From Streptomyces roseoverticillatus (GTDB taxonomy: Bacteria; Actinomycetota; Actinomycetes; Streptomycetales; Streptomycetaceae): a stretch of 64,000 nt of DNA. The first letter of the stretch is position 1. Every line of letters starts with the position of its first letter. This document shows positions 52,317 to 61,167 of the stretch, in pieces. A program made the position numbers and the translations under genes. The notes under the pieces were generated by a model. The model saw only the letters and a program-made list of their open reading frames with translations, was not told the origin of the DNA and did not search any database. The stretch spans positions 1 to 64,000 of the forward strand of contig NZ_JOFL01000014.1 in NCBI RefSeq assembly GCF_000719265.1, written 5' to 3'.

Positions 52317-53528
52317 TCAGGGCTGGCCGTAGCCGTCCAGGAAGTTCCCGATGCGCGTCACCGCGTCCGCCAGGTCCTTGGTGCTCGGCAGCGTGACCAG
52401 GCGGAAGTGGTCCGGCTCCGGCCAGTTGAAGCCCGTGCCGTGGACGACCATGATCTTCTCGGCGCGGAGCAGGTCCAGCACCATCTGCCGGTCGTCCTTG
52501 ATCTTGTAGACCTTGGGGTCGAGGCGCGGGAAGGCGTACAGCGCGCCCTTCGGCTTTACGCAGGTCACGCCCGGGATCTGCGTCAGCAGCTCGTGCGCGA
52601 CGTCGCGCTGCTCCAGCAGCCGGCCGCCCGGCAGCACCAGGTCGTTGATCGACTGCCGGCCGCCGAGGGCCGTGGCCACCGCGTACTGCGCCGGCATGTT
52701 GGCGCACAGGCGCATGTTGGCGAGGATCGTCAGGCCCTCGATGTAGCTGTCGGCGTGGGCCTTGGGGCCGCAGACCGCCATCCAGCCGCTGCGGTAGCCG
52801 GCCACCCGGTAGGACTTGGAGAGGCCGTTGAAGGTGAGCGTCAGCAGGTCGGGGGCGATGGCGGCGGTCGGAGTGTGCGTGACGCCGTCGTAGAGGATCT
52901 TGTCGTAGATCTCGTCGGAGCAGACGATCAGGTTGTGGCGGCGGGCGATCTCGGTCAGGCCGCGCAGCATCTCGTCGTCGTAGACGGCACCCGTGGGGTT
53001 GTTCGGGTTGATGATGACGATGGCCTTGGTGCGGTCGGTGACCTTGCGCTCGATGTCGGCGAGGTCCGGCATCCAGTCCGACTGCTCGTCGCAGCGGTAG
53101 TGCACGGCGGTGCCGCCGGCGAGGGAGACCGAGGCCGTCCACAGCGGGTAGTCCGGCGCGGGGACGAGGACCTCGTCGCCGTCGTCGAGCAGCGCCTGCA
53201 TCGACATCTGGATCAGCTCGGAGACGCCGTTGCCGAGGTAGACGTCCTCGACGGACAGCTCGATGCCCTTCGTCTCGTAGTGCTGCACCACCGCGCGGCG
53301 GGCGGAGAGGAGACCCTTGGCGTCGCCGTAGCCGTGCGCGTCGCCGACGTTGCGCAGCATGTCCTCGAGGATCTCCGGCGGGCACTCGAACCCGAAGATC
53401 GCCGGGTTGCCCGTGTTGAGCTTGAGGATGCGGTGACCTGCCGCTTCCAGCCGCATGGCCTCCTCGAGCACCGGGCCACGGATTTCGTAGCAGACGTTGG
53501 CGAGCTTCGTTGACTGGATCACCTGCAT
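52317..53528 (-). CDS. class I PLP aminotransferase (alanine/aspartate type)
   Basis: A 403-residue fold-type I aminotransferase. The PLP lysine is in GLSKSYRVAGYRSGWM, with NPNNPTGAVYDDEML binding the cofactor and RVAGYRSGW marking the AlaA/AlaT group. It probably interconverts alanine and pyruvate with glutamate. I start at ATG 53528 (MQVIQSTKLANVCYEIRGP), 7 nt after a TATGGT box, rather than the longer frame. Short GCTCGGG-type repeats follow its stop. Confidence 0.94.
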   Translation of the reverse strand: MQVIQSTKLANVCYEIRGPVLEEAMRLEAAGHRILKLNTGNPAIFGFECPPEILEDMLRNVGDAHGYGDAKGLLSARRAVVQHYETKGIELSVEDVYLGNGVSELIQMSMQALLDDGDEVLVPAPDYPLWTASVSLAGGTAVHYRCDEQSDWMPDLADIERKVTDRTKAIVIINPNNPTGAVYDDEMLRGLTEIARRHNLIVCSDEIYDKILYDGVTHTPTAAIAPDLLTLTFNGLSKSYRVAGYRSGWMAVCGPKAHADSYIEGLTILANMRLCANMPAQYAVATALGGRQSINDLVLPGGRLLEQRDVAHELLTQIPGVTCVKPKGALYAFPRLDPKVYKIKDDRQMVLDLLRAEKIMVVHGTGFNWPEPDHFRLVTLPSTKDLADAVTRIGNFLDGYGQP

Positions 53529-53604
53529 GACGGCCACCATACGGGGGCGCGACACGGGGCGCGCGCCGTTTGCGGAGGCGCCGGCACCGCCGCGAAGCCG
53601 CTGA

Positions 53605-55224
53605 TCACGGCCGTGCGGTGCGCCGGACGGTCCGGCCCGCGAGGACGTCCGTGCGGCGGCCGTCTTCCATCACAAAGCGTCCGGCAATCAGGACATAAGG
53701 AATGCCGGTCGGAAGGGTTCGCGGGGCTTCGAAAGTGGCACCGGCGGCCACCGTCTCCGGATCGAACAGGACGAGGTCCGCATGGTGCCCGACCCGTACG
53801 AGACCCCGGTCGGGGAGCCTCAGCCGGGCCGCGGGACGGGACGTGAGATGCGCCACGCACTCCTCCAGGGAGAGCACGCCGAGCTCGCGCACGTACCGGC
53901 CGAGGTAGTGCGGGAACGTTCCGTAAGCGCGCGGATGGGGCTTCGCGCCCTGCAGGATGCCGTCGCTGCCGCCCGTGTGCACGCGGTGCCGCATGATCGT
54001 GCGGACGTTCTCCTCGTGACCCACGTGCTGCAGGATCGCCGTGCCCAGCCTGTCCGCGATCAGCAGGCGGCGGGCCGTCGCCCACGGCTCCTCGCCGCGC
54101 TCGCGGGCCGCGCGGGCGATCGTCCTGCCGACGTGGGCGGAGGCCAGGGCCGGATCGGCCACGCCCGACACCTCGATCGCCTCCCAGTCGATGGGCACGC
54201 CGTGGCAGCCGTCCGCGCCCTCGGTCTCCATCGCGTACCGGATGCGCCCGGCCGTCGCGTCGTCGCGCAGGCGCGCCAGCACCGACTCCGGGCCGCCCTC
54301 GCCCGCCCAGCTCGGCAGCATCGCGGCGAGCGTCGTGCAGCCGGGGGTGTACGGGTACGTGTCCAGGGAGATGTCCGCGCCCGCGGCGAGCGCCGCGTCG
54401 AGCAGGGCCAGCAGCTCGGGGGCGCGGCCTTCGTTCACCCCGAAGTTCATGGTGGCGTGGGCCAGGTGCAGGGCGCAGCCCGCGCGGCGGGTCAGGGCGA
54501 TCATCTCCTCGTACGCGGCGAGGGCCCCCTTCCCGTACGAACGGTGGTGCGGGCAGTAGTAGCCGCTGTACGCCGCGACGACGCGGCAGAGCTCGGTCAG
54601 CTCGGCGTCCGTCGCGTACATGCCGGGTGTGTACGTGAGCCCGGAGGACAGGCCGACGGCGCCCTGTGCCAGCCCCTCCGCGACGAGCCGCTTCATGCGC
54701 TCGGTCTCGGCCGGCGTCGCCGGGCGGTCCTCCCAGCCGACGGCGAGCGCGCGGAGCGTTCCCTGGGGGATGAGGTAGGCGGCGTTGACGGCGATGCCCT
54801 CGCCGGCGAAGCCGTGGTCGAGGCGGTCCAGGTACTCGCCGGTGGTCCGCCAGGTGAAGTCGATGTCCGCACCGTCGCCGTTCCAGCCCGCGATCTGGGC
54901 GCGGACGGCGGCGAGGGTGCGGTCGTCGACCGGCGCGTACGACAGGCCGTCCTGGCCGATGACCTCCAGGGTGACGCCCTGGGCGGCCTTCGCGGTGTGC
55001 GCGGGGTCGCGCAGGAGGGCGAGGTCGCTGTGCGCGTGCATGTCGATGAAGCCGGGGGAGAGGGCGAGGCCGTTCGCCTCCACGACGCGGCGGGCGGTGG
55101 GGCGGGGGCCTGCACCGGGGCGCCGGATCTCGGCGATCCGGTCTCCGGCCAGGGCGACGTCGGCCCGGTAGGAGGGCCCGCCGGAGCCGTCGATGACGCG
55201 AGCGTCGCGGAACACGGTGTCCAT
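53605..55224 (-). CDS. N-acyl-D-amino-acid deacylase (D-aminoacylase)
   Basis: A 539-residue amidohydrolase-superfamily enzyme. The N-terminal metal site is FIDMHAHSDLALLRDP, EVIGQDGLSYAPVDD carries the family Cys/Gln region, LGLSSGLTYTPGMYA-like sequence (VGLSSGLTYTPGMYATD) is specific to D-aminoacylases, and HTGGSDGILQGAKPHPRAYG holds the catalytic Asp. It frees D-amino acids from N-acyl forms. GGGAG precedes ATG 55224. It lies downstream of the DSD1-type gene on the same strand, across a 449-bp repeat-rich gap. Confidence 0.94.
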   Translation of the reverse strand: MDTVFRDARVIDGSGGPSYRADVALAGDRIAEIRRPGAGPRPTARRVVEANGLALSPGFIDMHAHSDLALLRDPAHTAKAAQGVTLEVIGQDGLSYAPVDDRTLAAVRAQIAGWNGDGADIDFTWRTTGEYLDRLDHGFAGEGIAVNAAYLIPQGTLRALAVGWEDRPATPAETERMKRLVAEGLAQGAVGLSSGLTYTPGMYATDAELTELCRVVAAYSGYYCPHHRSYGKGALAAYEEMIALTRRAGCALHLAHATMNFGVNEGRAPELLALLDAALAAGADISLDTYPYTPGCTTLAAMLPSWAGEGGPESVLARLRDDATAGRIRYAMETEGADGCHGVPIDWEAIEVSGVADPALASAHVGRTIARAARERGEEPWATARRLLIADRLGTAILQHVGHEENVRTIMRHRVHTGGSDGILQGAKPHPRAYGTFPHYLGRYVRELGVLSLEECVAHLTSRPAARLRLPDRGLVRVGHHADLVLFDPETVAAGATFEAPRTLPTGIPYVLIAGRFVMEDGRRTDVLAGRTVRRTARP

Positions 55225-55673
55225 TGATTGCGCTCCCGGAGTCGAGGACGGTCCGGCACCGCCGGGCACGTCCGGTGGGGCTGTCGAGAGGCTGCGCCTC
55301 TCATGTCCGCCGGGGTGGCGATCGGCCACGGCGGGGCGGTCCGGCGGTGCTGTACGGGCCTGGGGCGGGTCGGGCACCGCCGGTTTCCGCCGTGGGGGTT
55401 GCTCGCTGTTGCGGCGGGAGGTTACGCCTGGCGGCGGGGGCGTGTGGAGGGGCCGGCCTCTGGATTCCGCCGCGGCGGGGGTGTTGAGAGGCTGCGCCTC
55501 TCATGTCCGCCGGGGACGGGCCGCAGCCGTGGCGGGCTGCGTCGAGAGGCCGGGCCTCCCCCTCCCGTCGCGGTGGCGATCAGCCACGACGGCGCGGTCC
55601 GGCGGTGCTGGACGGCCGTCGTGGTGGCCGGTGCGGCATCGTGCGGGACCCGCCGTCGCCGGGCGGCCGGCCG
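55225..55673. repeat. repeat-rich gap with a 30-bp direct repeat and hairpins
   Basis: No gene is seen. A perfect 30-bp repeat begins at 55286 and again at 55486, exactly 200 bp apart. Each copy starts with the hairpin GAGAGGC-TGC-GCCTCTC. Between and after them are GGCGGTGCTG-containing segments related to those at 32840-33310 and 35460-35690. Confidence 0.65.
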
Positions 55674-56993
55674 TCAGAAGAACGTGCGGATGTAATCCGT
55701 GACCGTGCCGTCCTCCGCGGCCAGGGGAATCAGCTGCCACTTGTCGAACACCGTGCACGGGTGCGACAGGCCCAGGCCCACCCAGTCGCCGACCTCGATC
55801 TCCGTGCCCTCCGCGAGTTCCACGAAGGCGTGCTGGTCGGCGAGGCCGATCACGGTCATGCCGTCGCCGCCCCGCACGGAGCCGTCCCGTGCGGACCGCA
55901 CGGCCCGTACGACCGGCAGGTCCAGGTCGTAGGGCACGTCCCGCTTGCCGGCGTTGAGGTAGGCGCGGCCGGGTTCCGGGCGGGAGACGACCTGGGCCCA
56001 GAGGCGGAACGCCGGGCGGAGTTCGCCCTCCTCGGGGTGGCGGTTGAAGGGGGTCTTCTTCCGGTACGCCCCGTCGTCGTGGGTGATGTACGCACCCGAC
56101 CGCAGCAGCTTCAGCACCGGCACCGACAGCGCCGGCAGCTCCGCGAAGACCTCGGCGACCGCGTCGAACCACGCGCTGCCGCCCGCGCTGACGACGACCT
56201 CCTCCACGCCGGCGAACCGGCCCGCCTTGTCGAACCCGGCGGCCAGTGCGGTCAGCCGGCGCAGCCACGCGCGGACGAGCTCGCCGTCCGCGCCCGGGAT
56301 CTCCGCCTCGTAGCCGCCGACGCCCGCCAGCCGCAGGGTGCTCACGGCGGCCACGGCGTCGGCCACGGCCGTGCAATCGGCCTCGGTGCGGGCGCCGGTG
56401 CGGCCGCCCGCGGCGCCCAGTTCGACGACGACGTCGAGGGGGCGGCGGGCCCCGGCGGCGCGGAGGGCGGCGTCCATCAGCTCGACGCCGCGTACGGAGT
56501 CGACGTAGGTGAAGAGCCGGAACTCCGGGTCGGCGTCCAGCTCGGCGGCGAGCCAGCGCAGGGCCGCGGCGTCCACGACCTCGTTGGCGAGGAAGACGCG
56601 GCGGATCCCGTGGGCGCGGTAGACGCGCACCTGGGAGACGGTCGCCGCGGTGATCCCCCACGCGCCGTGCGCGATCTGCCGCTCCAGCAGCTGCGGCGCC
56701 ATCGTGGTCTTGCCGTGCGGGGCGAAGGCCAGGCCGTGCCCGGCGGACCAGCGTTCCATGAGGGCGAGGTTGTGGTCGAGCGCCTCCGCCGACAGGGCGA
56801 GCACGGGCGTGGTGAAGCCGCCCGTGAAGAGCGAGCGGCGCTCGGCGGCCAGGGCGCCGACGGTCAGGCCCTCGGCGTCCGGGGGCAGGCCCTTGAAGCG
56901 GTGGTCGACGCGGGTGTCCGCGAGCCGGGCGACGGCGTCGACGGCGGTTCCGTCGGGGCCGTCGGTGCCGGTGGTCGCGTCGGCGGTGGCCAT
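55674..56993 (-). CDS. DSD1-type D-amino-acid lyase / D-threonine aldolase-like PLP enzyme
   Basis: A 439-residue fold-type III (alanine-racemase-like) PLP protein. The PLP lysine is in FAPHGKTTMAPQLLERQ, and the C-terminal D-serine-dehydratase-like domain has the metal-binding pair in LADQHAFVE and GLSHPCTVFDKW. Known relatives are D-serine dehydratase, D-threonine aldolase and D-amino-acid deaminases; which reaction applies is open. GGGAGG precedes ATG 56993. It is divergent from the kinase operon across an operator-like palindrome. Confidence 0.9.
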   Translation of the reverse strand: MATADATTGTDGPDGTAVDAVARLADTRVDHRFKGLPPDAEGLTVGALAAERRSLFTGGFTTPVLALSAEALDHNLALMERWSAGHGLAFAPHGKTTMAPQLLERQIAHGAWGITAATVSQVRVYRAHGIRRVFLANEVVDAAALRWLAAELDADPEFRLFTYVDSVRGVELMDAALRAAGARRPLDVVVELGAAGGRTGARTEADCTAVADAVAAVSTLRLAGVGGYEAEIPGADGELVRAWLRRLTALAAGFDKAGRFAGVEEVVVSAGGSAWFDAVAEVFAELPALSVPVLKLLRSGAYITHDDGAYRKKTPFNRHPEEGELRPAFRLWAQVVSRPEPGRAYLNAGKRDVPYDLDLPVVRAVRSARDGSVRGGDGMTVIGLADQHAFVELAEGTEIEVGDWVGLGLSHPCTVFDKWQLIPLAAEDGTVTDYIRTFF

Positions 56994-57027
56994 GGAGCCT
57001 CCCGGGGTGGGTCTGGTGTGTGCTGTC

Positions 57028-57060
57028 GTTGCACTCTGTGCAACGACCGTTGCGCATTGC
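57028..57060. promoter_or_regulatory. IclR-type operator candidate
   Basis: GTTGCAC-TCT-GTGCAAC (57028-57044) is a perfect 7-bp inverted repeat, followed at once by a half-like GTTGCGCATTGCGC (57049-57062). It lies 35 bp upstream of the DSD1-type gene and in the shared divergent promoter space of the cluster that encodes an IclR regulator. Confidence 0.65.
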
Positions 57061-57127
57061 GCTGGCTGCTGTCTAACATCCCGCCAAGTACCGGGTCAAC
57101 GGTCGTCTCACGCGCCGGGCACGACCG

Positions 57128-57232
57128 TGACAGGACGCGTACAAACCAGGACGCGGACAACCAGGACGCGGACGACCAGGGCGCGTACGACCCGGACGCG
57201 CACAAACCCGGACACGCACAAACCCCGGACCA
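57128..57232. repeat. 15-16-bp tandem repeats before the kinase gene
   Basis: About six units of the pattern GGACGCGNACAACCA run between the divergent promoters and the kinase start. Translated they give QDADNQDAD-like peptides without start signals. Confidence 0.6.
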
Positions 57233-57248
57233 GGAGCGAGGGCCGACC

Positions 57249-58496
57249 GTGACCGCAGCCGCCCGGAGGACCCCGGAAGGCGACCACCGACCCGCCGACG
57301 TCGTGTGCCTCGGCGAGTCGATGGTCGCCTTCCGCCCGGCGGCGGAGCGCGCGCCGCTCGCCGGCGCGGCCACCTTCGCCCGGGGCATCGGCGGCGCCGA
57401 GTCCAACGTCGCCTGCGCCCTGGCCGCCGCCGGGCACCGTACGAGATGGGTCGGCAGGGTCGGCGCGGACGGCTTCGGCGACCACCTGGTGGCCGCGATC
57501 GCCGCGTACGGCGTGGACGTCTCCGCCGTCCAGCGCGACCCCGACCGGCCGACGGGCGTGTACTTCCGTACGGCCGGGGAGCGGTCCGCAGGCCTCCCCG
57601 ACCCGCCCGGCGCCTCCGGCCCGCCCCACTCCGAAGTCCTCTACTACCGCGCCGGATCCGCCGCCTCCGCCATGTCGCCGGAGGTGATCCCCCGCGCCAC
57701 CGCCTGGTCCGGCCACGTCCTGCACCTCACCGGCATCACCGCCGCCCTCTCCGCCGGCTGCCTCGCCCTTCTCCGCGCCCTCACCGAGCGCCGCCCCGGA
57801 CGCCCCCTCGTCTCCTTCGACGTCAACTACCGCGTGGCGCTGTGGCGGAACGCCCCCGAGGGTCCCGCCGTCCTGGCCTCCCTCGCCCGCCGCAGCGACC
57901 TCGTCTTCGTCGGCGAGGACGAGGCCGAGGCCGCCTGGGGCCTCCACGGCGCCGCCGCGATCCGCTCCGCCCTGCCCGAGCCGCGGGTCCTCGTCGTGAA
58001 GCAGGGCGCGGCGGGGGCGACGGCGTACGTGCGCGCCGCCGCGGGCGGGCCGGGCACGGATGCCGTACTCACGGCCGGGGGCGGGCCGGGCACGGGCGAC
58101 GCACGAACTGCCGCTGCCCGCACGCCGCGCACCGACGCCGCCCCCCTCGCCGACGCCGTCGTCTCCGCCCCTGCCCCCTCCGTCGACGTCGTCGTCTCCG
58201 CTCCCGCCCCCTCCGTCGACGTCGTCGCCCCCGTCGGTGCCGGAGACGCCTTCGCCGCAGGATTCCTCCACGGCACCCTCCGCGGGCTGACCCCCGGACA
58301 GTGCCTGCGCCACGGCCACCTCATGGCCGCCGCCGCCCTCACCGCCCCCGGCGACCTCGCCGCCCCGCCCCGCCGCGACCACGCCGACCGGCTCGCCGCC
58401 CTCGGCCCCGAAGCCTGGGGGAGACTGCGACTCGGCCCGGGCTGGACCGAGCCCACCCCCGCCGCCCCCGCCAGCGCGAAGGAACGCACCCCATGA
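57249..58496 (+). CDS. PfkB-family carbohydrate kinase (2-keto-3-deoxygluconate kinase-like)
   Basis: A 415-residue ribokinase-fold enzyme. It starts VVCLGESMVAFRP with GGAESNVACALA in the sugar site; LVSFDVNYRVALWRN and the catalytic anion hole PVGAGDAFAAGFLHG (Asp is the base) are intact. The pattern fits KDG kinase, but substrate is inferred. The odd feature is an insertion of about 75 residues just before GAGD, Ala/Pro/Gly-rich with the unit VVSAPAPSVDV duplicated (33-bp repeat, about 58158-58223). The GTG at 57249 follows GAGCGAGGG. Its stop overlaps the IclR start as ATGA. Confidence 0.92.
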   Translation: MTAAARRTPEGDHRPADVVCLGESMVAFRPAAERAPLAGAATFARGIGGAESNVACALAAAGHRTRWVGRVGADGFGDHLVAAIAAYGVDVSAVQRDPDRPTGVYFRTAGERSAGLPDPPGASGPPHSEVLYYRAGSAASAMSPEVIPRATAWSGHVLHLTGITAALSAGCLALLRALTERRPGRPLVSFDVNYRVALWRNAPEGPAVLASLARRSDLVFVGEDEAEAAWGLHGAAAIRSALPEPRVLVVKQGAAGATAYVRAAAGGPGTDAVLTAGGGPGTGDARTAAARTPRTDAAPLADAVVSAPAPSVDVVVSAPAPSVDVVAPVGAGDAFAAGFLHGTLRGLTPGQCLRHGHLMAAAALTAPGDLAAPPRRDHADRLAALGPEAWGRLRLGPGWTEPTPAAPASAKERTP

Positions 58497-59263
58497 GCCA
58501 GACCGTCGACCGCGCCCTGCGGATCCTGCCGCTCCTCGCCGAGGGTCCGGCCAACCTGGAGCAGGTGGCGGCCCGCCTCGGCGTCCACAAGTCGACCGCG
58601 CTGCGCCTGCTGCGCACCCTCCACGAGCACGGCATGGTCTACCGGCAGCAGGACCAGCGCTACCGCCTCGGCACCCGCCTGTTCGCCCTCGCCCAGCAGG
58701 CCGCCGAGAACCTCGACGTCCGCGAGATCGCCCACCCCCACCTCGCCGCGCTCAACGAGCGCTGCGGGCACACCGTGCACCTCGCCGTGTACGAGGACGG
58801 CGAGGTCCTCTACATCGACAAGGTCGAGAGCCGCTACCCCGTACGGATGTACTCGCGCATCGGCAAGCCCGTCGCGATCACCGTCGCCGCCGTCGCCAAG
58901 CTGCTCCTCGCCGACCTGCCCGAGCCCGAGCGGCGCGCCGTCGCCGAGCGGCTCGATTACCCCGCCTACACGGCCCGTTCGACGCCGAACGCCGCCGCGT
59001 ACCTCGACGAGCTCGCGACCGTGCGGGAACAGGGCTGGGCCACCGACTTCGGCGGCCACGAGGAGTCCATCAACTGCATCGGCGCACCCGTCCGCGGCAC
59101 CGACGGCCGCGCCGTCGCCGCCTGCTCGGTCTCCGCGCCGAACGTCGTCGTCGGCACGGCCGAACTCCTCGAACTCCTCCCGCTGCTGCGCCGCACCGCG
59201 GACGCCATCAGCGCGGAGTACTCCGGTACGACACCGCCACCCCTGCAGAAAGCGAAACCATGA
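58493..59263 (+). CDS. IclR-family regulator of the D-amino-acid/sugar cluster
   Basis: A 256-residue IclR regulator. The N-terminal winged helix (1-65) reads MSQTVDRALRILPLLAEGPA with RLGVHKSTALRLLRTL as the recognition helix. The effector domain follows, with VAKLLLADLP and the ligand-site segment GHEESINCIGAPVRG. It is translationally coupled to the kinase (ATGA) and to RidA downstream (ATGA). The palindrome at 57028-57044 is its probable operator, controlling both arms of the cluster. Confidence 0.95.
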   Translation: MSQTVDRALRILPLLAEGPANLEQVAARLGVHKSTALRLLRTLHEHGMVYRQQDQRYRLGTRLFALAQQAAENLDVREIAHPHLAALNERCGHTVHLAVYEDGEVLYIDKVESRYPVRMYSRIGKPVAITVAAVAKLLLADLPEPERRAVAERLDYPAYTARSTPNAAAYLDELATVREQGWATDFGGHEESINCIGAPVRGTDGRAVAACSVSAPNVVVGTAELLELLPLLRRTADAISAEYSGTTPPPLQKAKP

Positions 59264-59664
59264 CCGAGAAGACCGCCGTCACGCCCCCCACCCACACCAC
59301 CCCGCCCGCGAAGTTCTCGCACGGCGTGAAGAAGGGCAACATCCTGCAGGTCGCCGGCCAGGTCGGCTTCCTGCCGGCGGTGGCGGGGCAGCCGCCGACG
59401 CCCGCCGGCGACTCCCTGCGCGCCCAGACCCTGCAGACCCTCGCCAACGTCGCGGCGGTCCTGGAGGAGGGCGGCGCCGCCTGGGAGGACGTGATCATGA
59501 TGCGGATCTACCTCACCGACACCGCCCACTTCGCCGAGTTCAACGAGATCTACGACGCGTACTTCGCCGGCCTGAAGTCCGTACCCGCCGCCCGTACGAC
59601 CGTCTACGTCGGCCTCCCCGCCGGCCTGCTCGTCGAGATCGACGCACTCGCCGTCCTCGGCTGA
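59260..59664 (+). CDS. ridA: RidA (YjgF/YER057c/UK114) enamine/imine deaminase
   Basis: A 134-residue RidA. Family signatures are GNILQVAGQVGF near the start, VIMMRIYLTDTAHFAEFNEI (about 82-101), and RTTVYVGLPAGLLVEIDALA, where Arg and Glu form the active site. It hydrolyses reactive enamines such as 2-aminoacrylate released by PLP-dependent lyases. Its place in a cluster with a D-amino-acid lyase fits that role exactly. The start overlaps the IclR stop as ATGA. Confidence 0.95.
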   Translation: MTEKTAVTPPTHTTPPAKFSHGVKKGNILQVAGQVGFLPAVAGQPPTPAGDSLRAQTLQTLANVAAVLEEGGAAWEDVIMMRIYLTDTAHFAEFNEIYDAYFAGLKSVPAARTTVYVGLPAGLLVEIDALAVLG

Positions 59665-59685
59665 CGGCCGTCCCGGGGCCGGGGG

Positions 59686-61167
59686 GTGGTGGACGCCGTG
59701 TCCGGCGTGTCCGTCGTATCCGTCACGTACGCGGCCGAGCGCCGCACCGGAGGGCTGCTCGCCCTCGTCCCGGGCACCGGCGGTCTGCTGACCGTCGCCG
59801 CCCTCGGAATCGCCCTGCTCCTCTTCCTCATCATCAAGGCCAGGCTGCAGCCCTTCGTGGCCCTGCTGGCCGTCTCCATCGCCGTCGGACTCGGCGCCGG
59901 GCTGTCCGTGACGGAGCTCTTCGGCACGGTTCAGAAGTCCGGCGCCGTGTCGCTCGTCGAGGCCGGCATGGGCGGCACCCTCGGCCACATCGCCGTGATC
60001 GTCGGGCTCGGCACGATGCTCGGCTCGGTCCTGGAGGTCTCAGGCGGCGCGCAGGCCCTCAGCGGCCGGCTCCTCGCCCTCTTCGGCGCGCGGCGCGAGC
60101 CCCTCGCGATGGGCGTGACCGGCGTGGTCTTCGGGATACCGGTCTTCTTCGACGTCGGCATCTTCGTCCTCGCGCCGATCGTGTACGCGGCAGCCCGGCG
60201 CAGCGGGAAATCGATTCTGCTGTACGCGCTGCCGCTGCTGGCCGGCCTCTCCATGACCCACGCCTTCCTGCCGCCGCACCCGGGCCCCGTGGCCGCGGCC
60301 GGGCTGCTGCACGTGGACCTCGGCCGGGTGATCCTCATGGGCGCCGCGGCGGGCCTGCCGGCGGTTCTGGCCGCGTGGGCGTACGCGGCCTGGATCGGCC
60401 GCCGCCTCTTCCTCCCCGTACCCGGGGAGATGGCGGCGGCGGCCGAGGAGGCGAAGCGGGCGGCGACGGCGCAGCGGGGCCCGGCCCCCGGGAAGCCGGT
60501 CGCGCTCGGCACGCTGCTCGCCGTCATCGGCACGCCCCTGCTGCTCATCCTCCTCGCGACGTTCTCCTCGGTGGCGTTCGCGCCGAGCGCGGGCCGCTCG
60601 GTCGTGGAGTTCTTCGGTCACCCCTTCGTGGCGCTGACCATCGCCCTGCTCCTGGCGTACTGGCTGCTGGGCCTGCGGCGCGGCTGGTCCCGCGCGTCGC
60701 TGGAGGCCGTCTCGACCGCCTCGCTCAAGCCGGTCGGCAACATCCTGCTCGTCGTCGGTGCGGGCGGCGTCTTCGGTGCGGTCCTCAAGGGCAGCGGGGT
60801 GGCCCGGGCGCTGGCCGACGCGTTCGCCGGCGCCGGGCTGCCGGTCATCGTCCTGGCGTGGCTGATCGCTGTCGCCCTGCGGGTGGCGCAGGGCTCGGCG
60901 ACGGTCGCGATCGTGACGACGGCGGGCATCGTCTCCCCGCTCCTGTCCGGCGGCGGCCACTCGCAGTCGCAACTGGCCCTGGTCGTCGTGGCGGTCTCGG
61001 CGGGCTCGGTCTTCGCCTCGCACGTCAACGACGGCGGGTTCTGGATGGTCTCCACGTACTTCGGCATCCCGGAGCGGGAGACGCTGGCGTCGTGGACGGT
61101 CCTGGAGTCGGTGCTGTCGGTGACGGGGTTCGCGGTGGCGGCGGCCCTGAGCGCGGTGGTGCCGTGA
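59686..61167 (+). CDS. GntP-family permease
   Basis: A 493-residue transporter with about 12 helices. GntP features are FGIPVFFDVGIFVLAPIVYA, SMTHAFLPPHPGPVAAAGLL, LRVAQGSATVAIVTTAGIV and ASHVNDGGFWMVSTYF near the C-terminus. Characterised members import gluconate and other sugar acids; some related carriers import D-serine (DsdX), so a D-amino-acid substrate is equally likely here. A GTG at 59686 begins 21 bp after ridA. A hairpin terminator follows the stop. Confidence 0.95.
   Translation: MVDAVSGVSVVSVTYAAERRTGGLLALVPGTGGLLTVAALGIALLLFLIIKARLQPFVALLAVSIAVGLGAGLSVTELFGTVQKSGAVSLVEAGMGGTLGHIAVIVGLGTMLGSVLEVSGGAQALSGRLLALFGARREPLAMGVTGVVFGIPVFFDVGIFVLAPIVYAAARRSGKSILLYALPLLAGLSMTHAFLPPHPGPVAAAGLLHVDLGRVILMGAAAGLPAVLAAWAYAAWIGRRLFLPVPGEMAAAAEEAKRAATAQRGPAPGKPVALGTLLAVIGTPLLLILLATFSSVAFAPSAGRSVVEFFGHPFVALTIALLLAYWLLGLRRGWSRASLEAVSTASLKPVGNILLVVGAGGVFGAVLKGSGVARALADAFAGAGLPVIVLAWLIAVALRVAQGSATVAIVTTAGIVSPLLSGGGHSQSQLALVVVAVSAGSVFASHVNDGGFWMVSTYFGIPERETLASWTVLESVLSVTGFAVAAALSAVVP

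Follow-up and report, generated by a model that had tools for sequence, protein, structure and literature searches.

The 64,000-nucleotide window analysed here (Streptomyces roseoverticillatus contig NZ_JOFL01000014.1; host genome, G000, of 7.2 Mb) carries at positions 53605-61167 a cluster of six genes that probably serves the catabolism of N-acetyl-D-glucosaminate (GlcNAc1A), the end group that C1-oxidising lytic polysaccharide monooxygenases (LPMOs) leave on chitin oligosaccharides. We hold with strong confidence that the substrate belongs to the N-acyl-2-amino-2-deoxyaldonates, and with slightly stronger confidence that the route runs from 2-keto-3-deoxygluconate (KDG) through its 6-phosphate (KDPG) to pyruvate and glyceraldehyde-3-phosphate. 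Gene content, a shared operator, linkage in other genera and joint presence or absence can all be read directly from the genomes. The use of oxidised chitin ends has so far been described mainly in marine bacteria, and the cluster looks like a soil-bacterial route. It comprises the following features:

53605-55224, minus strand: D-aminoacylase-like amidohydrolase (PF07969; 539 amino acids), predicted N-acetyl-D-glucosaminate deacetylase
55674-56993, minus strand: DSD1-type pyridoxal phosphate (PLP) enzyme, 'amino acid deaminase' (PF14031 and PF01168), predicted D-glucosaminate dehydratase yielding KDG and NH3
57026-57046, no strand: palindrome TCGTTGCAC-TCT-GTGCAACGA, predicted IclR operator, core at 57028-57044
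57249-58496, plus strand: PfkB kinase with a GTG start (PF00294), predicted KDG kinase
58493-59263, plus strand: IclR-family regulator (PF09339 and PF01614), predicted regulon repressor
59260-59664, plus strand: RidA-family enamine/imine deaminase (PF01042)
59686-61167, plus strand: GntP-family permease (PF02447, 411 bits; TIGR00791 over cut-off), predicted importer of the free aldonate

These genes make up a divergent pair of operons: deacylase and PLP enzyme read leftward, and kinase, IclR, RidA and GntP rightward. A reading of the window made from the sequence alone (the sequence-only reading) had grouped the six genes, three of them coupled by ATGA overlaps; family matches recovered all six at these coordinates, with the overlaps at kinase/IclR and IclR/RidA and the GntP start 21 bp past the end of RidA.

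In the proposed pathway, an ATP-binding cassette (ABC) importer would take up oxidised chitobiose (chitobionate), from which a cytoplasmic GH20 enzyme would cleave N-acetylglucosamine (GlcNAc), and the GntP permease would import free GlcNAc1A. Chitobionate (GlcNAc-GlcNAc1A) is also what remains as the end product of the Serratia chitobiase (PMC10067821). The amidohydrolase would strip acetate from GlcNAc1A (2-acetamido-2-deoxygluconate) to give D-glucosaminate, from which the DSD1-type enzyme would eliminate ammonia to give KDG, RidA hydrolysing the enamine/imine intermediate of that step; the PfkB kinase would convert KDG to KDPG, and an unlinked Eda-type aldolase would split KDPG into pyruvate and glyceraldehyde-3-phosphate. 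Acting at GTTGCR-N5-YGCAAC sites, the IclR protein would repress three units: the divergent cluster, the unlinked aldolase gene and the operon of importer and GH20. The substrate given for every enzyme, and likewise the import of chitobionate, are predictions. We favour GlcNAc1A as the single substrate because the aldolase, the ABC-GH20 operon and a lactonase are tied to the cluster by operator or position, and because the enzyme types are those of the marine ong pathway (PMC9537276).

The operator, a perfect palindrome with a 17-bp core, lies between the divergent operons, 35 bp upstream of the PLP-enzyme start and 205 bp before the kinase start. Sites were scored on the 12 defined bases of the core and were counted for the PLP gene when they fell between 450 bp ahead of its start and 60 bp into the gene. 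Among 80 named loci, picked by the deacylase and covering up to 10 kb on each side (37 from Streptomyces, 43 from 21 other genera), it matches at 12/12 in 51, 11/12 in 24, 10/12 in three, 9/12 in one and 8/12 in one; the Mycobacterium and Krasilnikoviella loci, which hold neither kinase nor IclR, have only 10/12 and 8/12 sites. The exact core occurs twice in G000, where a reversed-pattern control occurs 0 times (0-2 times in 12 other genomes). The second copy lies 41 bp upstream of the unlinked KDPG aldolase gene at C2:71995, whose product passes the PF01081 and TIGR01182 cut-offs. An 11/12 copy lies 20 bp upstream of the start of an ABC sugar-binding lipoprotein at C32, in a sugar-importer operon that includes a GH20 gene (PF00728), the start of which shows no signal peptide by eye.

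Both of these distant sites are conserved. In Streptomyces, the operator precedes the aldolase in 51/52 fetched loci, G000 included (32 at 12/12, 15 at 11/12 and four at 10/12, two of the latter looking weak); two rows of this set are pieces of one gene, and the row lacking a site is a 48% paralogue. The sugar-binding protein is preceded by it in 30/30 loci (27 at 12/12, three at 11/12), these being the best 30 of the 89 genomes with that protein. Equal-length stretches within the aldolase and sugar-binding genes, used as a control, never rise above 9/12. Across 13 genomes the exact core appears 0 to 5 times per genome, with extra sites in or near assorted genes; copies away from the cluster, aldolase and importer we read as chance, and only sites conserved before orthologues were counted. 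Judged on its position and conservation, the palindrome is very likely the site through which the cluster IclR regulates; that this particular protein binds it, and acts as a repressor rather than an activator, is our presumption, and the shared site suggests joint regulation of the cluster and the GH20 operon. The best NCBIfam model for the IclR protein is KdgR, under its cut-off. Membership of the DasR (GlcNAc) regulon was considered and rejected: the dre-like core TGGTCTAGACCA has two matches with at most 2 mismatches in the window, both outside 53605-61167. In locus L134 (genome G001, contig 280) two operator cores lie near genes that by eye resemble oxidoreductases and another IclR-family regulator, and are possibly sites of a related regulator.

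We then considered how far the gene set holds together. Of 20 long loci compared within Streptomyces, including four chosen because the kinase is missing nearby, all six genes are present in 13, GntP alone is missing in two (one such stretch stops at a contig end), the deacylase and PLP enzyme stand without the other four genes in four, and the PLP enzyme stands alone in one. In the 43 non-Streptomyces loci, the PLP enzyme and RidA are both found in 43/43, IclR in 39, the kinase in 36 and GntP in 31. The six-gene grouping exceeds chance adjacency, and as the set recurs across Streptomyces and 21 other genera, the cluster is old and coherent. An aldolase homologue lies within the locus in 21/43 non-Streptomyces and 2/37 labelled Streptomyces loci; Tsukamurella, for instance, has the order RidA-IclR-kinase / PLP enzyme-deacylase-KDPG aldolase-gluconate permease. 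GH20 is within the locus in 7/43 and the sugar-binding protein in 6/43 non-Streptomyces loci. Four Amycolatopsis loci (L248, L255, L257, L262) have the sugar-binding protein and GH20 placed after deacylase and GntP, in two Actinokineospora loci (L249, L268) a second exact operator lies between deacylase and GH20, and in genome G398 (L222) GH20 directly adjoins the deacylase. Ten proteins of the Amycolatopsis locus L248 and the Actinokineospora locus L249 were scanned and returned lactonase, ABC and GH20 families, two matching no family; in both loci a PF10282 lactonase sits between deacylase and GH20. A lactonase would fit the pathway because C1-oxidised ends equilibrate with 1,5-lactones (PMC12017989). 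G000 itself has two lactonase homologues (40-41% identity), which were set aside as candidates for this role, both being far from any operator. In Eleftheria terrae (L072, 7703-10236) a lactonase-family gene stands immediately ahead of a PLP-enzyme homologue.

Presence and absence were followed across 150 genomes of Streptomyces. A match to the PLP enzyme was found in 149 (E <= 0.001; the G139 match reaches only E 4.5e-10) and IclR in 136 (E <= 1e-75; the query, here and in the NCBIfam scan, was taken without its first Met). Excluding paralogue-only matches, the kinase is present in 119 and the aldolase in 120; G139, with only a 46% aldolase paralogue, and G028, G113, G120 and G135, with only 51-53% kinase paralogues, were scored absent. 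Both genes occur together in 114 genomes, the kinase alone in five, the aldolase alone in six, and neither in 25. Omission of the 22 most fragmented genomes (over 400 contigs) leaves 128, for which the counts become 106, 0, 4 and 18. The association has a Fisher p of 2e-18, a value uncorrected for shared descent. In the less fragmented 128, the sugar-binding protein accompanies 78/106 kinase-bearing and 0/22 kinase-less genomes; in the full table two kinase-less genomes, G028 and G139, have it. On the PLP-enzyme tree, where 43 of 50 Streptomyces rows were scored (seven fragmented genomes omitted), each trait changes 4 times and there are 2 to 4 independent contrasts; in random pairings the aldolase changes in the same direction in 1.9 of 2 and never in the opposite one. 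Kinase and aldolase have mostly been lost or gained together.

These results bear out the sequence-only reading in taking the genes for one catabolic unit, in pairing RidA with the PLP lyase, and in seeing the kinase as the sign of a 2-keto-3-deoxy sugar acid, for which the operator-linked KDPG aldolase now speaks. The N-acylated D-amino acid and the sugar acid that it named are most likely one molecule, N-acetyl-D-glucosaminate. It had also held that independent occurrence of kinase, permease and deacylase would reduce the cluster to coincidence: the kinase is a frequent and conserved member (36/43 loci outside Streptomyces) and mostly moves with the aldolase, but a minority of Streptomyces retain deacylase and PLP enzyme without it.

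The marine ong pathway takes GlcNAc1A, the C1-oxidised chitin end produced by LPMOs, to KDG-6-phosphate in Pseudoalteromonas (PMC9537276, PMC12017989), with a D-aminoacylase-like OngB, a deaminase-like OngC, a RidA-type OngD, a KDG kinase (KdgK) and a GH20, OngA (PMC9537276). We compared the ong cluster of Pseudoalteromonas prydzensis ACAM 620 by way of locus L074 of Pseudoalteromonas sp. CF6-2, whose genes make up the same set. The likeness lies in the unit itself, D-aminoacylase-type deacylase, DSD1-type deaminase, RidA, PfkB kinase and GH20 (PMC9537276): four of these types are in the Streptomyces cluster and GH20 is in the unlinked operon behind the same operator. The two differ in the regulator (MurR/RpiR there, IclR in Streptomyces), in transport (SSS and TonB receptors there, GntP and ABC in Streptomyces), in the unlinked position of GH20 and aldolase in G000, and in the metal-site type of the deacylase. 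In local alignments with CF6-2, identity is 34% for the deacylase and 31% (386 residues) for the deaminase. The published screen, covering 2,455 marine and 12,220 terrestrial genomes, required at least four co-occurring homologues with more than 30% identity and E < 1e-5 (PMC9537276); against CF6-2 only deacylase and deaminase pass 30%, kinase and RidA falling below, and a screen with that four-gene threshold would therefore miss the Streptomyces cluster. Complete ong pathways are given for Gammaproteobacteria and one Betaproteobacterium, Achromobacter (PMC9537276, Fig. 6 legend), and the words 'Streptomyces' and 'Actinobacteria' do not occur in the accessible text of PMC9537276 and PMC12017989. 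LPMOs of S. coelicolor act on chitin (PMC10067821). Streptomyces carry LPMOs, yet searches of the CC-licensed PubMed Central literature turned up the two ong papers and LPMO papers but no account of how these bacteria use the oxidised ends, nor any GlcNAc1A pathway described for Streptomyces or for Actinobacteria more widely.

What we read as new here is an actinobacterial counterpart of the ong pathway together with an IclR-type palindrome regulon. On balance we lean towards an oxidised-chitin pathway that Actinobacteria assembled separately, with its own class of Asp-liganded GlcNAc1A deacetylases, a chitobionate importer, a cytoplasmic GH20 splitting chitobionate, KDG kinase, KDPG aldolase, a single IclR operator conserved across Streptomyces, Tsukamurella, Nocardia, Arthrobacter and Amycolatopsis, and in some genera a lactonase; common in Streptomyces, it would be the missing sink for LPMO products. 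Such a pathway would suggest a second origin of GlcNAc1A deacetylation and give candidate functions to genes that at present bear the names 'D-aminoacylase', 'alanine racemase' and 'sugar kinase'; the 17-bp operator regulon makes the question testable in laboratory Streptomyces.

Turning to the single enzymes, the PLP enzyme scores over cut-off for both PF01168 (Ala_racemase_N) and PF14031 (D-ser_dehydrat), the DSD1-type combination, and its Lys95, His411 and Cys413, presumably the PLP-lysine motif and the C-terminal His/Cys pair, are invariant in 10 aligned sequences. Its closest solved relative is 3gwq (273 bits), labelled a D-serine deaminase; unlike 3gwq and the D-threonine aldolases, the Streptomyces enzyme has a gene context that predicts D-glucosaminate as substrate. 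Relatives on Klebsiella plasmids and in Agrobacterium (L070, L077, L082) stand beside RidA and amino-acid ABC transporters with no annotated sugar kinase, and the family therefore probably acts on other D-amino acids elsewhere. For the kinase, the best solved relative is the Thermus KDG kinase 1v19 (E 2.3e-33). It differs from the KDG kinases (1v19, NF040938) in carrying a tandem-repeat insertion and in staying under the equivalog cut-off, with 142.4 bits for NF040938 and 56.6 for NF052444 against 400 in each case. Within the kinase gene a 33-bp tandem repeat occupies 58138-58227, in a stretch (residues ~262-319) to which solved relatives do not align.

Aligned with a Pseudoalteromonas OngB-type protein, the deacylase shows HxH, an Asp at the place of the OngB/AfDam Cys ligand, two His and the catalytic Asp; no signal peptide is apparent by eye. 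HxH, His222, His252, Tyr194, Tyr285, Asp368 and Arg379 are kept in 91 aligned actinobacterial deacylases. With the AfDam and BbDam D-aminoacylases (1m7j, 3gip) it shares the amidohydrolase family, HxH, two His and catalytic Asp, and it differs from them in its Asp for the Cys ligand and in clustering with a sugar kinase.

Several observations weigh against the assignment to GlcNAc1A, foremost those on the deacylase pocket. OngB, solved as PpOngB in 9kb1 and 9kb3, stands for a deacetylase family defined by action on GlcNAc1A but not on N-acetyl-D-amino acids; it has a metal site of Cys97, His222 and His252 with catalytic Asp368, and Glu226, Lys254, Ser292 and Gln298 as substrate residues, and activity is lost in mutants at several of these positions (PMC12017989). 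All 91 actinobacterial deacylases replace Cys97 by Asp, Glu226 by Tyr and Ser292 by Thr, and Lys254 is Thr in 87 and Val in four; the place aligned with Gln298, beside a large insertion where the alignment is poor, is Arg in 83/91, as in BbDam-like enzymes; in BbDam this Arg serves for N-acetyl-D-glutamate (PMC12017989). They thus have neither the Cys/His/His site nor the substrate residues of OngB, and an OngB-like specificity is unreadable from their sequences. Either the substrate is held differently, an insertion of ~50 residues being the candidate, or the substrate differs. For comparison, a Cupriavidus locus (L083) has an OngB-type deacylase (Cys97, Lys254, Glu226, Ser290-292 and Gln298 kept) together with GntP, RidA, PLP enzyme, kinase and aldolase homologues.

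The remaining points on this side concern the kinase, the regulon and the genome counts. The window kinase and RidA are only 22% and 27% identical to their CF6-2 counterparts, and the top NCBIfam model of the kinase is the IolC N-domain (149.6 bits, cut-off 300), just above KDG kinase. The operator occurs without a detected IclR before the aldolase of G089, which also shows no kinase, and Pseudonocardia L230 and Marinactinospora L242 keep the exact operator with neither kinase nor IclR found in the locus; in G000 no operator accompanies the LPMO locus or either lactonase homologue, the best match being 9/12. The kinase search may overlook genes, as that of G008 was found by blast and not in the 150-genome search, and the 2-4 kinase contrasts on the tree are too few for significance, the pattern being only consistent with joint change. 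In some Streptomyces (L208, L210, L217) RidA, IclR, operator and PLP enzyme remain although the kinase between them and the aldolase are gone (the L217 contig stops before the deacylase; in L209, an exact site match sits past the PLP gene), and the left-hand enzymes may therefore have a kinase-free use. Finally, AA10 LPMO genes are present in 148/150 Streptomyces genomes, which makes LPMO co-occurrence almost uninformative; the two genomes without them (G051, G121) also have no kinase, IclR or aldolase. One AA10 LPMO was found in G000, and up to 8 in other sampled Streptomyces.

The pocket residues, unlike OngB throughout, would suit a different substrate on the same KDG/KDPG route, be it another N-acyl-2-amino-2-deoxy-aldonate (N-acetyl-D-galactosaminate, or one with a non-acetyl acyl group) or a lactone. 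A Klebsiella pneumoniae record (CP125156.1, L076) points the same way: its ong-like set, with RidA, an SSS transporter, an amino acid deaminase and an unannotated deacylase match, is paired with genes annotated as 2-dehydro-3-deoxygalactonokinase and 2-dehydro-3-deoxy-6-phosphogalactonate aldolase, and is a possible galacto variant. The near-universal AA10 LPMOs of Streptomyces, and a co-regulated GH20 and KDPG-type aldolase (TIGR01182 and PF01081 over cut-off) that fit the gluco series, speak for GlcNAc1A, and we regard a different aldonate as unlikely.

A simple N-acyl-D-amino acid pathway (for D-Ser, D-Thr or others), with the kinase serving an unrelated function, draws on the whole-sequence scores of the deacylase, for which D-aminoacylases are the closest solved relatives (243.7 bits versus 206.7 for PpOngB), on the D-serine deaminase label of 3gwq, and on the Streptomyces that retain deacylase and PLP enzyme without kinase; the S. 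coelicolor D-aminoacylase Sco4986 is reported to act on N-acetyl-D-Phe/Trp. It leaves aside the kinase of 36/43 non-Streptomyces loci, the aldolase linked by position or operator, and the fact that GH20, the ABC importer for sugar and, at two loci, a lactonase belong to the same regulon or operon, which makes it quite improbable. A source of KDG in uronic acids from glycosaminoglycan or pectin breakdown, with deacylase and PLP enzyme as a side branch, is very improbable: GH20, KDG kinase and KDPG aldolase are also found in such pathways, but the ten scanned L248/L249 proteins include no GH88, lyase or ketouronate enzyme, and the best conserved genes would be left unexplained.

A promoter and terminator scan gave no signal above shuffled sequences. 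PLP enzyme and deacylase are separated by some 450 bp (55225-55673), where imperfect direct repeats occur (91 nt at 78%, 43 nt at 93%), and 15-bp tandem repeats lie at 57131-57221, before the kinase start. An aminotransferase-like gene (52317-53555, minus strand) begins 49 bp past the stop codon of the deacylase, reads in the same direction and has a homologue of more than 50% identity in 48/100 loci tested, all of them Streptomyces.

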